In this document: one piece after another, positions 4,466 through 44,748 of the stretch
Layout: each line of letters starts with the position of its first letter
Position numbering within the stretch: the first letter of the stretch is position 1
Origin: an uncultured Rubrobacteraceae bacterium
GTDB taxonomy: Bacteria > Actinomycetota > Rubrobacteria > Rubrobacterales > Rubrobacteraceae
Direction: 5' to 3'
DNA length: 61,515 bases
NCBI GenBank assembly: GCA_902806085.1
Contig: CADCVH010000117.1
Location: 1 to 61,515, forward strand
Position numbers and translations under genes: made by a program
The notes under the pieces: generated by a model
What the model was told of the DNA's origin: nothing
What the model saw: the letters and a program-made list of their open reading frames with translations, nothing else
The model's database searches: none

Positions 4466-5608
4466 ATGACACTAGACCCGGGGGCCGGCGCTAGCCAGGC
4501 CCCGGCCCAGGAAACCTCGGGCAAACTCCACCACAGCATCGGCCGCTTCGAGCCGGAGCTCGGCGGCGCCTTGGAGGACGTGACGCTCGCCTACGAGACC
4601 TGGGGCGAGATGAGCGGGGGCGCGGACAACGTCGTCCTCCTCACGCACGCCCTCACGGGCGACTCGCACGCGGCGGGCGGGCCCTGCCGGGAACACAGGC
4701 GCGGCGGGTGGTGGGACCCGATGGTGGGGCCGGGGCGGCCCGTGGATACGGAGAAGTTCTTCGTCGTGTGCTCGAACGTGCTCGGGGGCTGCTCCGGCAG
4801 CACGGGGCCCGCGTCCGTCGATCCCGAGACCGGGGAGCCCTACGGTATGCGCTTCCCGGTCGTCACGATCCGGGACATGGTCCGGGCGCAGAAGCGCCTG
4901 CTCGATGACCTCGGCGTGGCCCGGCTCGCGCTCGTCATCGGGGGGTCCATCGGCGGGCAGCAGGCGCTCGAATGGGCCGTGGAGTTCCCGGGCTTCGCGG
5001 AGAAGGCCGCGCCCGTGGCGGCGACGGGGGCGTTGGGGCCGCAAGGAATAGGGATGAGCGAGATCGGGCGCCGCGCCATCATGGCCGACCCCGACTGGCG
5101 CAAAGGAGACTACTACGGCACCGGGAAGAGCCCCGAAGAAGGCCTCGCCATCGCCCGCATGGCCGGCATGATGACCTACCAGAGCGCCCCGGGCCAGTGG
5201 GAACGCTTCGGCCGCAGGCCCGCGGGGAGACCCGCGCTCTACGAGGGGCTCGGCGGCCGGTTCGAGATAGAGAGCTACCTCCACTACCAGGGCCACGACC
5301 TCGTCGGGCGCTTCGACGCCAACTCCTACCTATACCTCAGCCGCGCCATGGATCTCTACGACGTCGCGAACGGCTACGACTCTCAGGAGGAGGCCCTCGC
5401 CCGCGTCTGTGCCGACCTCCTCTTTGTCGGCATAACGAGCGACTGGCTCTTCCCCGCAAACGAGGTGCGAGGCACGGCCGAAAAGGCGGGCCGGGCCGGC
5501 GCCAGGGCCCGCTACGCCGAAATAGACACCCTAAGCGGCCACGACGCCTTCCTCAAAGACTGGCCGGAGCTCGAAGAGGCCGTAACACCCTTCATAACCA
5601 GAACCTGA
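4466..5608 (+). CDS. metX: Homoserine O-acetyltransferase
   Basis: A 380-residue alpha/beta-hydrolase-fold acyltransferase that transfers the acetyl group of acetyl-CoA to homoserine, the first committed step of methionine synthesis by direct sulfhydrylation. The nucleophile elbow is GGSIGGQQALEW (Ser near residue 160); the acid is the Asp of GITSDWLFP (near 326) and the base the His of LSGHDAF (near 359). Family stretches NVVLLTHALTGDSHAAGG and LGGCSGSTGPAS are present. The ATG at 4466 lies downstream of the SAM riboswitch; its ribosome-binding sequence (4441-4448) is rather far from the ATG and falls inside the predicted sequestering stem. The next gene, metY, starts 35 bases downstream and supplies the partner enzyme. 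Confidence 0.93.
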   Translation: MTLDPGAGASQAPAQETSGKLHHSIGRFEPELGGALEDVTLAYETWGEMSGGADNVVLLTHALTGDSHAAGGPCREHRRGGWWDPMVGPGRPVDTEKFFVVCSNVLGGCSGSTGPASVDPETGEPYGMRFPVVTIRDMVRAQKRLLDDLGVARLALVIGGSIGGQQALEWAVEFPGFAEKAAPVAATGALGPQGIGMSEIGRRAIMADPDWRKGDYYGTGKSPEEGLAIARMAGMMTYQSAPGQWERFGRRPAGRPALYEGLGGRFEIESYLHYQGHDLVGRFDANSYLYLSRAMDLYDVANGYDSQEEALARVCADLLFVGITSDWLFPANEVRGTAEKAGRAGARARYAEIDTLSGHDAFLKDWPELEEAVTPFITRT

Positions 5609-5619
5609 AAAAAACCTGA

Positions 5620-8188
<2,569 letters not shown>

Positions 8189-28489: not shown

Positions 28490-28609
28490 GGGAAGGGAAC
28501 GTAGATCAGGGACGGCGTCCCGTCAAGGCCGGCGGCGCGTTTCCATTCGGGCGGGTGGCGCATTAGTATGTCGGGGATTGGTCCGTGGCCGTTACGAGGG
28601 AGGCGCGAG

Positions 28610-29986
28610 TTGAACCGGTTGGCAAGGGGAGCGCTCACGGCGGTCGGCGGGGCGGTCGCGGCCGAGGCGCTGCGGCGCCTGATCTTCTCCGGAAACGGCC
28701 AGCGCTACGAGCCGTGGGAACGGGCGCCCTACCGGGACTTCCCGAACCGCGTCCTCGTTTTGGGCGGCGGCTTCGCGGGCTACACGGCGGCGAAGAACCT
28801 GTGCAAGATGACCCGGGGCCGCGACGACGTCGGGGTCATGGTCATCTCCAGGGAGAACTTCTTTACCTTCTGGCCCATGCTAGCCGGCTGCATCAGCAGC
28901 GACATAGACTCCAACAACGTGGCGCAGCCCTTGAGGCGCGCCCTGATCCGGGACGGCGCCAGCTTCCGCCGCGCGGACGTCGAGGGACTAAACCTGGAGA
29001 AGCGATGCGTGACCGCCGCCGGTAAAGAGTTCCCCTACGAGCACCTCGTCCTGGCGCTCGGCGCGGAGCCGGCGTACTTCGGCATCCCCGGCGTCGGGGA
29101 GCACGCCATCAGCATCAAGGGCATCAGCGCCGCCGAGGCCATAAGGAACAGGGTCATCGAGCGCTACGAGGAGACCACGCTCGCCCTCGGTGACGTGCCG
29201 GACTCGCGCCTGACGTTCGTCATCATAGGCGGCGGGGCCACCGGGGTAGAGGTCGCCGCGGAACTCCACGCCCTCGTGCACGACATCCTGGCGCCGGACT
29301 ACCCGAACATAAACCCGCACCGGGCCAGGATCGTGCTCGTGGACAGCAACGAGCAGATCCTAAAAGAACTGGACCCCGCCCTCAGGCGCGCCGCCCGCAT
29401 GAAGCTCGCCGCCCTCCAGATAGAGGTCTTGAACAGGGTCAAAGCCAAGGAGATAAGGGCGGACCGCGTTGTCCTCTCGGACGGGAACGAGATCCCGACG
29501 GAGAACGCCATCTGGACCGCCGGCGCCCGCGCCAGCGAGAAGCTGGACGACCTCCCGCTTCCGGCCGACGAGCGCAAAGGCCTTAAGACGGACGTCTTTA
29601 TGCGCGTCGAGGGCCACGAGAACGTGTGGGGCATCGGCGACTGCGCGGCGACCGTCGAGGAGGACGGGACCCCGGTGCCGCCAAACGCCCAGGCCGCCGT
29701 GCAGGAGGGCAAGGTCGTGGCGAGGAACATCCTGGCCGCCATAGACGGCAAGGAGATGAGGCCCTTCGACTACAAGCCCGTCGGCCAGCTCGTGGAGATA
29801 GGGGACAACTTCGCCGTCAACGAGGTAATGAGCGTCAAGTTCAGCGGCCTTTTGGCCTCGCTCTTCTGGCGGGCGACCTACCTGTACAAGCTGGAGAGCC
29901 CGCAGAGCCGGGCCAGGATAGCGGCGGACTGGATCCTCGACCTCTTCTTCGACCCGGCCGTCACCCAGATACGGGACCGCTCCTAA
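28610..29986 (+). CDS. NDH-2-like FAD/NAD-dependent oxidoreductase
   Basis: A 458-residue flavoprotein of the pyridine nucleotide-disulfide family, similar to type II NADH:quinone dehydrogenases. The FAD-binding GXGXXG-type motif is VLVLGGGFAGYTAAKN (about residue 45) and the NAD-binding motif FVIIGGGATGVEVAAEL (about 205-221); the C-terminal FAD contact is NVWGIGDCAA. The N-terminal RGALTAVGGAVAAEALRRL and the C-terminal LASLFWRATYLYKL are amphipathic, suiting peripheral membrane binding. I take the TTG at 28610 because GAGGGAGG is six bases upstream; an ATG at 28568 adds 14 residues. Electron flow from NADH to quinone without proton pumping is likely. PurU follows seven bases later. Confidence 0.85.
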   Translation: MNRLARGALTAVGGAVAAEALRRLIFSGNGQRYEPWERAPYRDFPNRVLVLGGGFAGYTAAKNLCKMTRGRDDVGVMVISRENFFTFWPMLAGCISSDIDSNNVAQPLRRALIRDGASFRRADVEGLNLEKRCVTAAGKEFPYEHLVLALGAEPAYFGIPGVGEHAISIKGISAAEAIRNRVIERYEETTLALGDVPDSRLTFVIIGGGATGVEVAAELHALVHDILAPDYPNINPHRARIVLVDSNEQILKELDPALRRAARMKLAALQIEVLNRVKAKEIRADRVVLSDGNEIPTENAIWTAGARASEKLDDLPLPADERKGLKTDVFMRVEGHENVWGIGDCAATVEEDGTPVPPNAQAAVQEGKVVARNILAAIDGKEMRPFDYKPVGQLVEIGDNFAVNEVMSVKFSGLLASLFWRATYLYKLESPQSRARIAADWILDLFFDPAVTQIRDRS

Positions 29987-40759: not shown

Positions 40760-40808
40760 CGGCGGACTGAGCTTGCGTGGGGCGGGCTCACGAGGGAGAG
40801 GAAACCTT

Positions 40809-42254
40809 ATGGAGTCCATACCCAGCGCGAGCTACAGTTTTACCCTGCGGGTCGAGTTTCCGCACCGGGCGGGATCGCTCGGCAAGATCCTGACCGTCAT
40901 CGGGGAGGCGGACGGGATGGTAGGGGCGGTGGACATCGTCAGGATGCGCGAGGACAGGACCGTCCGCGACATCACCGTGAACGCCCGCGACTCCGAGCAC
41001 GGGCAGAGCGTGGTCGAGGCCGTCGGGGAGCTGCCCGAGGTCGAGGTCGTCAACGTCTCGGACAGGACGTTCCTGATGCACCTCGGGGGCAAGATCGAGG
41101 TGCGCTCCAAGCTGAAGATCCGCACCCGCGACGACCTCTCGATGGTCTACACGCCGGGTGTGGCCCGGGTGTGCCGCGCGATCCACGACGACCCCGAACG
41201 CGCCTTCAACCTCACCATCAAGCGCAACACCGTGGCCGTCGTCTCCGATGGGACCGCCGTCCTCGGCCTCGGGGACATAGGCCCCAGGGCGGCGATGCCC
41301 GTGATGGAGGGCAAGGCCGCCCTCTTCAAGCAGTTCGCGAACGTGGACGCCTTCCCGATCTGCCTCGATACCAAGGACACCGAGGAGATCATCGCCACCG
41401 TCAAGCACCTCGCCCCGGCCTTCGGCGGCATAAACCTCGAAGACATCTCCGCCCCCCGCTGCTTCGAGATCGAAGAGCGCCTGAAGAAGGACCTGGACAT
41501 CCCCGTCTTCCACGACGACCAGCACGGCACCGCCGTGGTGGTCCTCGCGGCCCTCATAAACTCCCTCAAGATCGTCGGCAAGAAGGTCGAAGACCTGCGC
41601 CTGGTCGTGAACGGGGTGGGGGCTTCGGGCGTGGCGTGCGCCAAGATCATAATGGCCGCCGGCGCCACGAACGTCGTCGGTTGCGACTCGAAGGGCATCG
41701 TCCACGAGGGCCGCGAGGACTTGAACCCCGCCAAGCGCTGGTTCGCCGAGAACACCAACCCCGAGGGCCGCACCGGGGACCTGGCCGAGGCCGTCCGCGG
41801 CGCCGACCTGTTCCTTGGGCTCTCCGCCCCGAACGTGTTGAGCGTCGACCATCTCAAGACGATGAACGAGGACCCCATAGTCTTCGCCATGGCCAACCCC
41901 GACCCCGAGATACGCCCCGAGATCGCGATGGGCCACGCCAGGATCATCGCCACCGGCCGCAGCGATTACCCGAACCAGATCAACAACGTCCTCTGCTTCC
42001 CCGGTATCTTCCGCGGCGCCCTCGACGTCCGCGCCCGCGAGATCGACGAAGGCATGAAGCTCGCCGCCGCCAACGCCATGGCCGACGTGATCCCCGAGGA
42101 AGAGCTCTCCGACGACTACATAATCCCCTCGGTCTTCGACGAACGGGTCGCCCCCGCGGTCGCCGAAGCCGTCTCGGAGAAAGCGAGGGAGACCGGCATG
42201 GCCCGCCGCGTCCAGGACCGCGCCGAAACGGGCCTCTCGGCGACGACGTTCTAG
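40809..42254 (+). CDS. Malic enzyme with N-terminal ACT domain
   Basis: A 481-residue NAD(P)-dependent malic enzyme that decarboxylates malate to pyruvate. Residues about 8-80 form an ACT domain (YSFTLRVEFPHRAGSLGKIL), a possible site for effector control. The catalytic core includes VYTPGVARVCRAIHDDPERA, DGTAVLGLGDIGPRAAMPVMEGK, NLEDISAPRCFEIEERL and DIPVFHDDQHGTAVV, with the dinucleotide-binding VVNGVGASGVACAKII. The start ATG at 40809 follows GAGGGAGAGG. A short palindromic stem follows the stop. The enzyme type without ACT is well known; the fusion occurs in some bacteria. Confidence 0.92.
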   Translation: MESIPSASYSFTLRVEFPHRAGSLGKILTVIGEADGMVGAVDIVRMREDRTVRDITVNARDSEHGQSVVEAVGELPEVEVVNVSDRTFLMHLGGKIEVRSKLKIRTRDDLSMVYTPGVARVCRAIHDDPERAFNLTIKRNTVAVVSDGTAVLGLGDIGPRAAMPVMEGKAALFKQFANVDAFPICLDTKDTEEIIATVKHLAPAFGGINLEDISAPRCFEIEERLKKDLDIPVFHDDQHGTAVVVLAALINSLKIVGKKVEDLRLVVNGVGASGVACAKIIMAAGATNVVGCDSKGIVHEGREDLNPAKRWFAENTNPEGRTGDLAEAVRGADLFLGLSAPNVLSVDHLKTMNEDPIVFAMANPDPEIRPEIAMGHARIIATGRSDYPNQINNVLCFPGIFRGALDVRAREIDEGMKLAAANAMADVIPEEELSDDYIIPSVFDERVAPAVAEAVSEKARETGMARRVQDRAETGLSATTF

Positions 42255-42283: not shown

Positions 42284-42441
42284 AGGTTTTGAGGCACAAG
42301 GTTTTAGGCTAGGGGGCGTGACCTCGCCGCGCGGGCGATACCCGCCGCAGGCTGACGCGATGATGGAAGCGAATTGCGTGATCTTCACCGCGCTGGTACC
42401 CCGAAGATTCAAAGCCTAGAACCTCGAAGCCTAGAACCTCT
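42284..42441 (+). repeat. Intergenic inverted-repeat element, copy 2 (AGGTTTTGAGG family)
   Basis: AGGTTTTGAGGC (42284-42295) and the nearby AAGGTTTTAGGCTAG (about 42298-42312) face CAAAGCCTAGAACCTCGAAG and CCTAGAACCTC (42410-42440) on the right. Both arms are tandem pairs of the same word in inverted orientation. The first 11 bases of the left arm (AGGTTTTGAGG) match the left arm at 11729. The element again sits between a terminator-like stem and a gene with its own promoter. The right arm ends about 25 bases before the leaderless -10 box of the next gene. Confidence 0.6.
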
Positions 42442-42477
42442 ACTGGACTTCTCCCCGGCGCGGAATAGAATTTCCTT

Positions 42478-42753
42478 ATGCCGGCCTTCCGCCAGATCTT
42501 TGTTTGCGCCACGCCCGGGGAGGGGCGCTGCGGGGAGAAGGGCGGGGGCGAGCTTCTGGAGGCTTTTAAGGACGAAGTGGAACGGCGCGGGATGTCCTCG
42601 TCCACCGTCCTGCGCAACGCCTGCACCCGGCGCCACGAGGAGGGGCCGGTCGTCTTTATCTTCCCCGACGACGTCTGGTACGCCCGCGTGACGCCCGACG
42701 ACGTCCCGCGCATCGTCGAAAGCCACCTGCTGCCCGCCCGGGCAGGGTCTTAG
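42478..42753 (+). CDS. Thioredoxin-like (2Fe-2S) ferredoxin homologue with a Cys-to-His change
   Basis: A 91-residue protein resembling single-domain thioredoxin-like [2Fe-2S] ferredoxins (NuoE family): FVCATPGEGRCGEKGGGELL, then VLRNACTRRHEEGPVVFIFP and the ending DDVPRIVESHLLP. The expected cluster ligands are four cysteines in the pattern C-X~8-C-X~30-C-X3-C. Here C10, C18 and C49 are in place, but the fourth position is His53 (CTRRH instead of CxxxC). A three-Cys one-His cluster or a lost cluster are both possible. TAGAAT (42466-42471) ends six bases before the ATG, with no Shine-Dalgarno site, so the mRNA is probably leaderless. Confidence 0.75.
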   Translation: MPAFRQIFVCATPGEGRCGEKGGGELLEAFKDEVERRGMSSSTVLRNACTRRHEEGPVVFIFPDDVWYARVTPDDVPRIVESHLLPARAGS

Positions 42754-42762
42754 CGGCCTGGG

Positions 42763-44097
42763 TTAGGGTACTCGCCCGGGGGGGCCATCCCGGCTCCGCC
42801 AACCCTCGTCGTGCTTCTCCTGCTGGCCGCCGACGGGCGAGGTCCCATCGCTTCCGAATCCCAGTCGTCCGATGGTCCGTTCCATGGCCCAGTCGGCGCC
42901 GGTCAGGAGCCTGTCGCGGCGGCTCTTGATGTAGTAGAGGAAGACGCTCCGGTAGAGGGCCTGGGCCGCGGGGCCGCGCAGCTTGAGGCCCACGGCGTCG
43001 GCAACGCCGCCCTCGGGGCCGAGGCTCACCACGTAGCCCCGGTCGAAGAAGCGGAAGGGCGGGCGGCCCCGGCGGCTCTCCGCGCCCCTCAGGCGTCGTT
43101 TGAGGTCGCGGGCGGCCCAGGGACCCTGCTGCACGGCGACGGAGGCTGTGGGGGGCAGGGGGCCGAGCTTCGGGTGCGTGTAGCGGCCGGCGTCCCCGAG
43201 CACGTAGACCTCGGGGTGATCCGGCAAAGTCAGGTGCTCGTCTATGGCTATGCGGCCGGACGGGTCGTGTTCCCCGGGTAGCTCGCGGACGAGCGGCGCG
43301 GCCCCGACCCCCGCCGCCCACACGCGCGTGGCGGCGGGCAAAAACTCGCCCCCGAACCGCACGCCCGACCCGCTCGCCTCGTCGACCACGGTGTTCAGCA
43401 GCACCTCTACGCCGAGGTTGGCGAGGGTCTGCCGGGCAACGCGGTCGAAGTACGGGTCGAGCCAGCCCATTAGCCGGTCCGTGGCCTCGAAGAGCACGAC
43501 CCTCGGCGCTTCGCGCGGGCGCCGGTGCGAGCGCCTCCTGAGGTAGTCGAAGAGCGACGCGACCTCCGCGGCGAGCTCCACCCCGGTCGCCCCGCCGCCC
43601 ACGATGGCCACCGTGAGGGCGCCGGGCGGCGCCGGGGCCGTGCCGGTGGCCAGCTTCCAGGCGCCGGCTAGCGCGCCGCGCAGGGCCAGGGCGTCGTCCA
43701 CGCTCCAGAACTTCTGCAGGTGGTCCCGCAAGGGGGCGGGGGGTGGCGTCGCGACGCTGCCGGGGTTTAGCACGAGGTACTCGTAGCCCACGACCCCCCC
43801 AGAGGTGTGGAGCACCTTCTCGTCGAGGTCCACGCCCGTAACCTCGGCCTTTAGGAGGGCGCACGCGTCGCGGCAGAGGGGGGCCACGGGGGAGCGGACG
43901 CTGCCCGGGTGGACGCGACCGACGGCGACCTCGTGGGCCAGGGGGATGAACTCCCACTCGTCCCGGCGGTCGACGAGCAGGGTCTCGCCCGGCTTTCTCA
44001 GGGGCGGCGGGAGGTGCCTCAGCAGGGAGGCGCCGGCGAACCCGGCCCCGACCACCACCACCCGCGCCCCCCGGTCCACGCGCACGGAGCGGGCCAT
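42763..44097 (-). CDS. NDH-2-like FAD-dependent oxidoreductase (second copy)
   Basis: A 444-residue flavoprotein of the NADH dehydrogenase type II family. VVVVGAGFAGASLLRHL is the FAD motif, VAIVGGGATGVELAAEVASL the NAD motif, and EVYVLGDAGRYTHPKLGPLPPTASVAVQQG the C-terminal FAD contact with the quinone-site glutamine. Its sequence is clearly different from the protein at 28610, so it is not a recent duplicate. The C-terminal segment YRSVFLYYIKSRRDRLL is amphipathic. The ATG at 44095-44097 gives the family N-terminus; the open frame continues 54 codons upstream and looks noncoding. It ends nine bases from the convergent ferredoxin-like gene. Confidence 0.88.
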   Translation of the reverse strand: MARSVRVDRGARVVVVGAGFAGASLLRHLPPPLRKPGETLLVDRRDEWEFIPLAHEVAVGRVHPGSVRSPVAPLCRDACALLKAEVTGVDLDEKVLHTSGGVVGYEYLVLNPGSVATPPPAPLRDHLQKFWSVDDALALRGALAGAWKLATGTAPAPPGALTVAIVGGGATGVELAAEVASLFDYLRRRSHRRPREAPRVVLFEATDRLMGWLDPYFDRVARQTLANLGVEVLLNTVVDEASGSGVRFGGEFLPAATRVWAAGVGAAPLVRELPGEHDPSGRIAIDEHLTLPDHPEVYVLGDAGRYTHPKLGPLPPTASVAVQQGPWAARDLKRRLRGAESRRGRPPFRFFDRGYVVSLGPEGGVADAVGLKLRGPAAQALYRSVFLYYIKSRRDRLLTGADWAMERTIGRLGFGSDGTSPVGGQQEKHDEGWRSRDGPPGRVP

Positions 44098-44300
44098 ACC
44101 CCTAGCCAGCCTTCCCGGGCACGACGGGCCGGCAGGGCGTATTCCTAAGGGCTTCTGGCAACATGCTGTCCTCCGTTCGGGGCCTGCTCGCGGCGACACG
44201 GGGAGTATACAGCGGCGGGCGGGTGCCCCGGCCGCCGCGGCCGTCCCGGCGGGGAACACGGGGCGTTCATCCGGCCCGGGACCATCCCCAGGCGGGCGGC

Positions 44301-44424: not shown

Positions 44425-44748
44425 GTGATAAAGGAGGAAGCGGGGGCCGGGGACATCATCCCCGGGCTTATAGTCAGGCATACCAACCGGCGTCTGGGCA
44501 AGCTCGACGCCTGCGAGGCTTGCGAGCGTTTGATCTCGGGCAAGATCTCTTTCTCCGAGTTCGTGGACCAGGTGGGGGATCGCTACACGGAGATCCTGGA
44601 CTTTATGACGGAACACGACCTCCACCCGGGCCGCCCGGAGGAGGTCCTTTTTTGCATAGACTGCCACGCAGGTCTCTCCGCACGCAACGTCTTGCGGGCG
44701 CAACTTACCTACCTCTACGGCTACGACGAGAAGGCCGCCCTGGGATAG
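44425..44748 (+). CDS. Small protein with two CXXC pairs, unknown function
   Basis: A 107-residue soluble protein with cysteines at 30, 33, 77 and 80 (LDACEACERL and LFCIDCHAGL), arranged as two CXXC pairs about 44 residues apart, suitable for one zinc or a redox centre. Between them is a charged helical region ending in GRPEEV. I do not recognise the family. The GTG start has GAAAGGGA a few bases before it and its own strong promoter. It is followed after 91 bases by a small membrane protein gene on the same strand, perhaps one unit. Confidence 0.65.
   Translation: MIKEEAGAGDIIPGLIVRHTNRRLGKLDACEACERLISGKISFSEFVDQVGDRYTEILDFMTEHDLHPGRPEEVLFCIDCHAGLSARNVLRAQLTYLYGYDEKAALG

Follow-up and report, generated by a model that had tools for sequence, protein, structure and literature searches.

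A thioredoxin-like ferredoxin of Rubrobacteraceae with an invariant histidine at the fourth ligand position

The window, i.e. the whole 61,515-nucleotide stretch of DNA analysed here, comes from a Rubrobacteraceae genome of 133 contigs whose named relatives belong to the same family. It carries a gene for a thioredoxin-like ferredoxin (TLF) in which a histidine, retained in every aligned orthologue, takes the place of the fourth ligand cysteine of Cys4 TLFs. The product is fairly probably a soluble carrier with a 3Cys:1His [2Fe–2S] cluster of raised, pH-dependent potential, with a ligand set of single origin in the family and a convergently encoded flavoprotein as possible partner.

The ferredoxin gene and its predicted fold

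The gene and the codons of its putative ligands are located as follows.

42478..42753, + strand: TLF gene with Cys3His ligand set (91 aa; coordinates include the stop)
42505..42507, + strand: codon of Cys10, ligand 1 (30/30 rows covering the site)
42529..42531, + strand: codon of Cys18, ligand 2 (31/31 rows)
42622..42624, + strand: codon of Cys49, ligand 3 (31/31 rows; TGC 25, TGT 6)
42628..42633, + strand: Arg51-Arg52, invariant pair of the CTRRH loop (31/31 rows, several synonymous codons)
42634..42636, + strand: codon of His53, ligand position 4, Cys in Cys4 TLFs (31/31 rows; CAC 30, CAT 1)

The open reading frame translates as MPAFRQIFVCATPGEGRCGEKGG...NACTRRHEEGPVVFIFPDDVWY..., and the residues singled out by the first-pass annotation, C10, C18 and C49 plus His53 at the fourth ligand position, can be read in it directly. 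That the gene is real is indicated by GC contents of 0.70/0.51/0.88 at codon positions 1/2/3, a real-gene pattern, together with the orthologues in the family and the conserved box upstream of them (see below). The ligand spacing is Cys-X7-Cys-X30-Cys-X3-His. Known TLFs are described by Cys-X10-12-Cys-X29-34-Cys-X3-Cys (PMC11138216), and the original observation has to be corrected in that the first loop, C-x7-C in most members, is shorter than the C-x10-12-C of that pattern. It is longer in two orthologues (L029 and L031), where its length comes closer to that in the Cys4 sister group.

An AlphaFold2 model (protein only, no cluster placed) was obtained from the orthologue alignment, denoted A1, with a mean pLDDT of 87.8 and a pTM of 0.80. 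The top Foldseek matches were 1m2d, 1m2a, 1m2b and 1f37 from A. aeolicus and 5abr from A. vinelandii, all at E <1e-5 and with 1m2d at E 5.8e-7. VIA-align gave Z 12.2 and rmsd 2.2 over 86 aligned residues for 1m2a_A, and Z 12.0 and rmsd 2.1 over 84 for 5abr_A. By this model the product has the TLF fold and resembles the Aquifex [2Fe–2S] ferredoxin; the confident prediction and the matches to the two ferredoxins bear out the thioredoxin-like [2Fe–2S] fold proposed at first pass. In the phmmer alignment H53 corresponds to residue 59 of the A. aeolicus ferredoxin, a Cys that the C59S variant 1m2d replaces by Ser. As this variant was crystallised, a residue other than Cys at the site does not block folding or crystallisation. 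The C49-x3-H53-x2-G56-P57 spacing equals that of C56/C60/G63/A64 in A. vinelandii FeSI, for which Cys11, Cys24, Cys56 and Cys60, followed by Gly63-Ala64, are described (PMC8561814). Overall, the fold, size, order and positions of the ligands and the Gly-Pro after the fourth ligand are shared with the Cys4 TLFs (A. aeolicus 1m2a, A. vinelandii Shethna protein I 5abr, C. pasteurianum Fd), whereas the histidine and the prevalent C-x7-C loop set the Rubrobacteraceae protein apart. The NCBIfam ferredoxin models NF041612 and NF041613 scored 51.4 and 38.8 bits, below their cut-offs of 150 and 195. No CDGSH domain was matched in Pfam at E up to 1, and VIA-align returned no NEET fold, an absence that carries no weight.

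Conservation, ligand sets and origin of the histidine

The Cys3His TLF is a core gene of Rubrobacteraceae. A search with the protein query P0001 identified an orthologue in 30 of 36 family genomes (own genome counted; E ≤1.1e-31), among them all 17 that are at least 95% complete; the family genomes lacking it are 75–92% complete. A search with A1 covered 396 genomes of the phylum and detected the orthologue in 31 of the 39 from Rubrobacteraceae; the best match outside the family (E 1.6e-18, 67 bits) was well separated from the weakest orthologue (1.4e-39). No Cys3His orthologue was seen outside Rubrobacteraceae in these 396 genomes, with other phyla covered in part. A contig scan by exact peptide patterns, which reaches close relatives only, returned 17 loci, all labelled as Rubrobacteraceae, Rubrobacter or unresolved Actinobacteria/Actinomycetota. 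A tblastn search of plasmids gave 37 matches, all of them weak.

Alignment A1 comprises 31 orthologue rows, 30 of them different. Its invariant columns are C18, C49, R51, R52, H53, G56 and P57, and C10 is found in the 30 of 30 rows that cover it. The codons at these columns vary (TGC/TGT, CGC/CGG/CGT/CGA, CAC/CAT), which indicates that the protein rather than the DNA is conserved. The check suggested at first pass, an alignment of orthologues, was hereby performed: His53 is present in 31/31 rows. The possibility raised alongside it, that orthologues carry Cys and the histidine is a sequencing error, is ruled out by the same count. The partial row in A1 is the R. marinus copy (L030/L048), in which the frame breaks between C10 and C18. 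Positions 4980-6530 of this locus (L048), which span both this break and an NDH-2-like gene divided between frames, contain either sequence errors of that assembly or decayed genes.

For comparison, 55 non-orthologous TLF loci were considered, namely the own-genome paralogue L002 and 54 loci chosen as a subset of the matches listed. By alignment, the fourth-ligand position reads Cys in 53 of these loci from the phylum and HxxxH in two (L077 and L078, family f7); CxxxH occurs in 0/55. L077 and L078, from the families of genomes G055 and G041, are short two-domain Apd1-like proteins with open frames of 274 and 277 aa, in which HxxxH lies in the C-terminal TLF half and the N-terminal half is without a ligand set. 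Another TLF, L113, has Ser at the third and Cys at the fourth ligand position (CCSC).

Natural His ligands at homologous positions of the TLF fold are described for Apd1/Aim32 (PMC11138216, PMC11126956). The ligand pattern of these proteins is C-X8-C-Xn-HxGGH, with both histidines on the reducible iron and, in the yeast proteins, electron transfer coupled to protons (PMC11138216; also PMC11126956, PMC8482512). The Rubrobacteraceae protein shares with them and with bacterial Suc_Fer-like proteins (PF06999) the TLF fold and a His at the homologous fourth position, whereas Apd1/Suc_Fer proteins have a His also at the third position, are longer and form a separate clade. Among 30 Suc_Fer-like loci, 27 matched the ligand regular expression, with HxGGH in 17, HxGGD in nine (L148, L150, L152, L154, L155, L156, L159, L160, L162) and HxGGC in one (L153), the last His of HxGGH being thus exchanged for Asp or Cys. 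Two of the three loci outside the expression read HVGQH (L134) and HIGGD (L151). Judging from these motifs in actinobacterial Suc_Fer-like proteins, the Apd1 family may include natural CCHD and CCHC ligand sets.

A tree was calculated with the four ligand columns masked, from 77 columns and 104 of 115 rows (the 11 rows dropped were partial, duplicate or N-terminal-half rows); given the few columns and unsettled bootstraps, its fine branching is unsure. The Cys3His rows form one clade (support 100/99, bootstraps unsettled), in line with the distinct ferredoxin subclass envisaged by the first-pass annotation. This clade is nested in a 52-row clade that includes 24 Cys4 rows (97/88, with the same reservation), and the Suc_Fer/HxxxH rows make up a separate group (one change). 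The position of the Cys3His group inside the Cys4 TLF clade and apart from Suc_Fer suggests that the histidine arose independently. The fourth Cys of a Cys4 TLF was probably replaced by His once, in the ancestor of Rubrobacteraceae and independently of the Apd1/Suc_Fer line.

Two alternatives can be weighed against this background. The protein might be a drifted member of the Cys2His2 Apd1/Suc_Fer family, since PF06999 is its best Pfam match (E 9e-5) and its first loop is short, like C-x8-C in Apd1. The 23 bits of this match (20.7 bits by genome search) lie under the gathering score of 34.9, the third ligand is Cys rather than His, and the tree places the Cys3His group with the Cys4 TLFs; family membership is rejected by score and tree, and we regard it as extremely unlikely. 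Three Cys and one His are also a common zinc site, and the residues could bind zinc after loss of the iron–sulphur cluster. In this protein they sit where the [2Fe–2S] ligands do in the TLF fold, to which the model is matched with confidence, and the ancestors of the group were Cys4 TLFs; a zinc protein is for these reasons very unlikely.

Gene neighbourhood and expression

The elements flanking the ferredoxin gene are the following.

40773..42254, + strand: malic enzyme gene, upstream and in the same orientation
42444..42471, + strand: promoter-like site TGGACT-16-TAGAAT (0.1 expected in shuffles)
42763..44259, − strand: NDH-2-like FAD/NAD(P)H oxidoreductase, convergent neighbour (Pyr_redox_2, PDB match)

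The −10-like box of the promoter-like site ends 6 nt 5′ of the ferredoxin ATG, which suggests a leaderless mRNA. Of the 31 orthologues, 28 have a TANAAT box at a similar position, compared to 2.6% of shuffled upstream stretches; the box is absent in L011 and L018, and L030 was not scored. The ferredoxin mRNA is, on these sequence features, probably leaderless and made from its own promoter. A 15-nt stretch occurs twice in tandem at 42409-42438, upstream of the promoter-like site. In 26 of 30 loci the malic enzyme gene precedes the ferredoxin gene in the same orientation; two of the other four loci are too short to tell. An operon of the two genes is unlikely in view of the conserved promoter-like box of the ferredoxin gene itself and a gap of ~1.5 kb between the end of the malic enzyme gene and the ferredoxin gene in R. 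taiwanensis (L040).

The convergent NDH-2-like flavoprotein gene mentioned at first pass was confirmed by domain and PDB matches: Pyr_redox_2 at E 9.6e-32, NDH2_C below threshold, and NADH:ubiquinone reductase 9mqy as best PDB match (E 5.6e-41). Homology sets in some 45-60 codons into the frame, and the true start may lie there. The ferredoxin and flavoprotein genes stand tail to tail in 30/30 whole-genome loci and in 17/17 contig-scan loci, many of the latter from the same genomes. Longer loci keep the same order from a penicillin-binding protein (PBP) to an abhydrolase gene. Adjacency is given little weight here because the PBP-to-abhydrolase block is conserved and the genomes without an orthologue are incomplete assemblies; as proof of a partnership it was discounted as general synteny of the whole block. 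A conserved 107-aa protein with the CxxC pairs CEAC and CIDC is encoded at 44425-44748 (+) and kept beside the flavoprotein in most long loci; it had no Pfam or NCBIfam match.

In NDH-2 the first Gln (Q317) of the AQxAxQ motif is described as clamping the quinone (PMC6167311). The corresponding position of the flavoprotein, residue 373 of the translation of 42763-44259 (−), is a Ser, and it is Ser in 28 of 29 orthologues and Ala in the remaining one (L030 was not scorable). Among 20 further NDH-2-like proteins, taken from these and related genomes, the Gln is retained in 17 by alignment, and the window's own NDH-2-like paralogue at 28568-29986 has PPNAQAAVQ. The replacement weakly suggests that electrons go to another acceptor, and the ferredoxin is a candidate for this role. 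As a unique marker the loss of the Gln is weakened by three of the 20 controls (L165, L167 and L179) that are likewise without it. The flavoprotein as possible redox partner of the ferredoxin is only suggestive, as the genes converge, which precludes a shared operon, and belong to a longer stretch of conserved gene order.

Expected cluster properties and implications

We infer from the homology outlined above that each chain would bind one [2Fe–2S] cluster through C10, C18, C49 and H53, and that C49 and H53 would hold the reducible iron, as the second ligand pair does in Apd1. With histidine ligation, a potential far higher than in Cys4 TLFs would be expected, as would coupling of cluster reduction to protonation of His53. 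MitoNEET provides the analogy. Its last ligand pair is C83-x3-H87, the wild-type protein has an Em of ~+30 mV and mutants have values below −300 mV, and the cluster owes its pH lability to the His (PMC6006223). With the same C-x3-H spacing, a raised and pH-dependent potential may be anticipated for the ferredoxin. The likeness to NEET/CDGSH proteins (mitoNEET, NAF-1, MiNT) concerns the 3Cys:1His set with its final Cys-x3-His pair, present here as residues only, while the fold is unrelated and a CDGSH match is absent. The mitoNEET comparison made at first pass holds for the ligand set, whereas by fold the protein is closest to Cys4 TLFs and to the Apd1 type with Cys2His2 ligands.

It is conceivable that three Cys hold the cluster with another or no fourth ligand and that His53 is a second-sphere residue, as the crystallised Aquifex Cys59Ser variant (1m2d) implies that the fold may tolerate a change at this site. 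Given that no other usual ligand residue near the position is invariant and that the CxxxH spacing equals mitoNEET's, we attach very little credence to this arrangement. A cluster could also be bound at a labile, His-ligated site that serves cluster transfer or redox/pH sensing instead of electron transport. Lability and a sensor function are described for the CCCH clusters of NEET proteins and IscR (PMC6006223, PMC11138216), a docking surface would be well served by the invariant Arg pair of the ligand loop, and the gene is without an operon partner. As no DNA-binding or transfer partner is seen beside the gene and the Cys3His clade sits among stand-alone ferredoxins, such a role appears unlikely, and the electron carrier with a 3Cys:1His cluster is preferred. 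In its most specific form, this carrier would be an Apd1-independent 3Cys:1His TLF that passes single electrons, coupled to protons, from an NDH-2-like flavoprotein that has ceased to reduce quinone. The two proteins would form a NAD(P)H:ferredoxin system of two components, with a ferredoxin of raised potential, found in Rubrobacteraceae alone. This scenario is doubtful as a whole, and we put it forward tentatively.

For CCCH [2Fe–2S] clusters, a 2023 review of ligand sets names NEET proteins, IscR and Grx-BolA with its partner (PMC12499515). IscR and Grx-BolA likewise have one His ligand on a [2Fe–2S] cluster (PMC12499515), but are a transcription factor and a hetero-complex, respectively, with other folds. 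Searches of one open-access library found no Cys3His TLF. If the TLF scaffold carries a CCCH site, one fold would accommodate three ligand sets (CCCC, CCHH and CCCH), and the exchange of Cys for His should alter the ease of electron uptake and give pH sensitivity. Some Rubrobacteraceae genomes (e.g. G018 and G024) encode the orthologue as well as a Cys4 paralogue and a Suc_Fer protein. With all three ligand sets in single genomes, the family would allow one to ask whether ferredoxins acquired histidine ligands more than once, and it would provide a natural series on one fold, in which the effect of one versus two histidines on potential and proton coupling is measurable.
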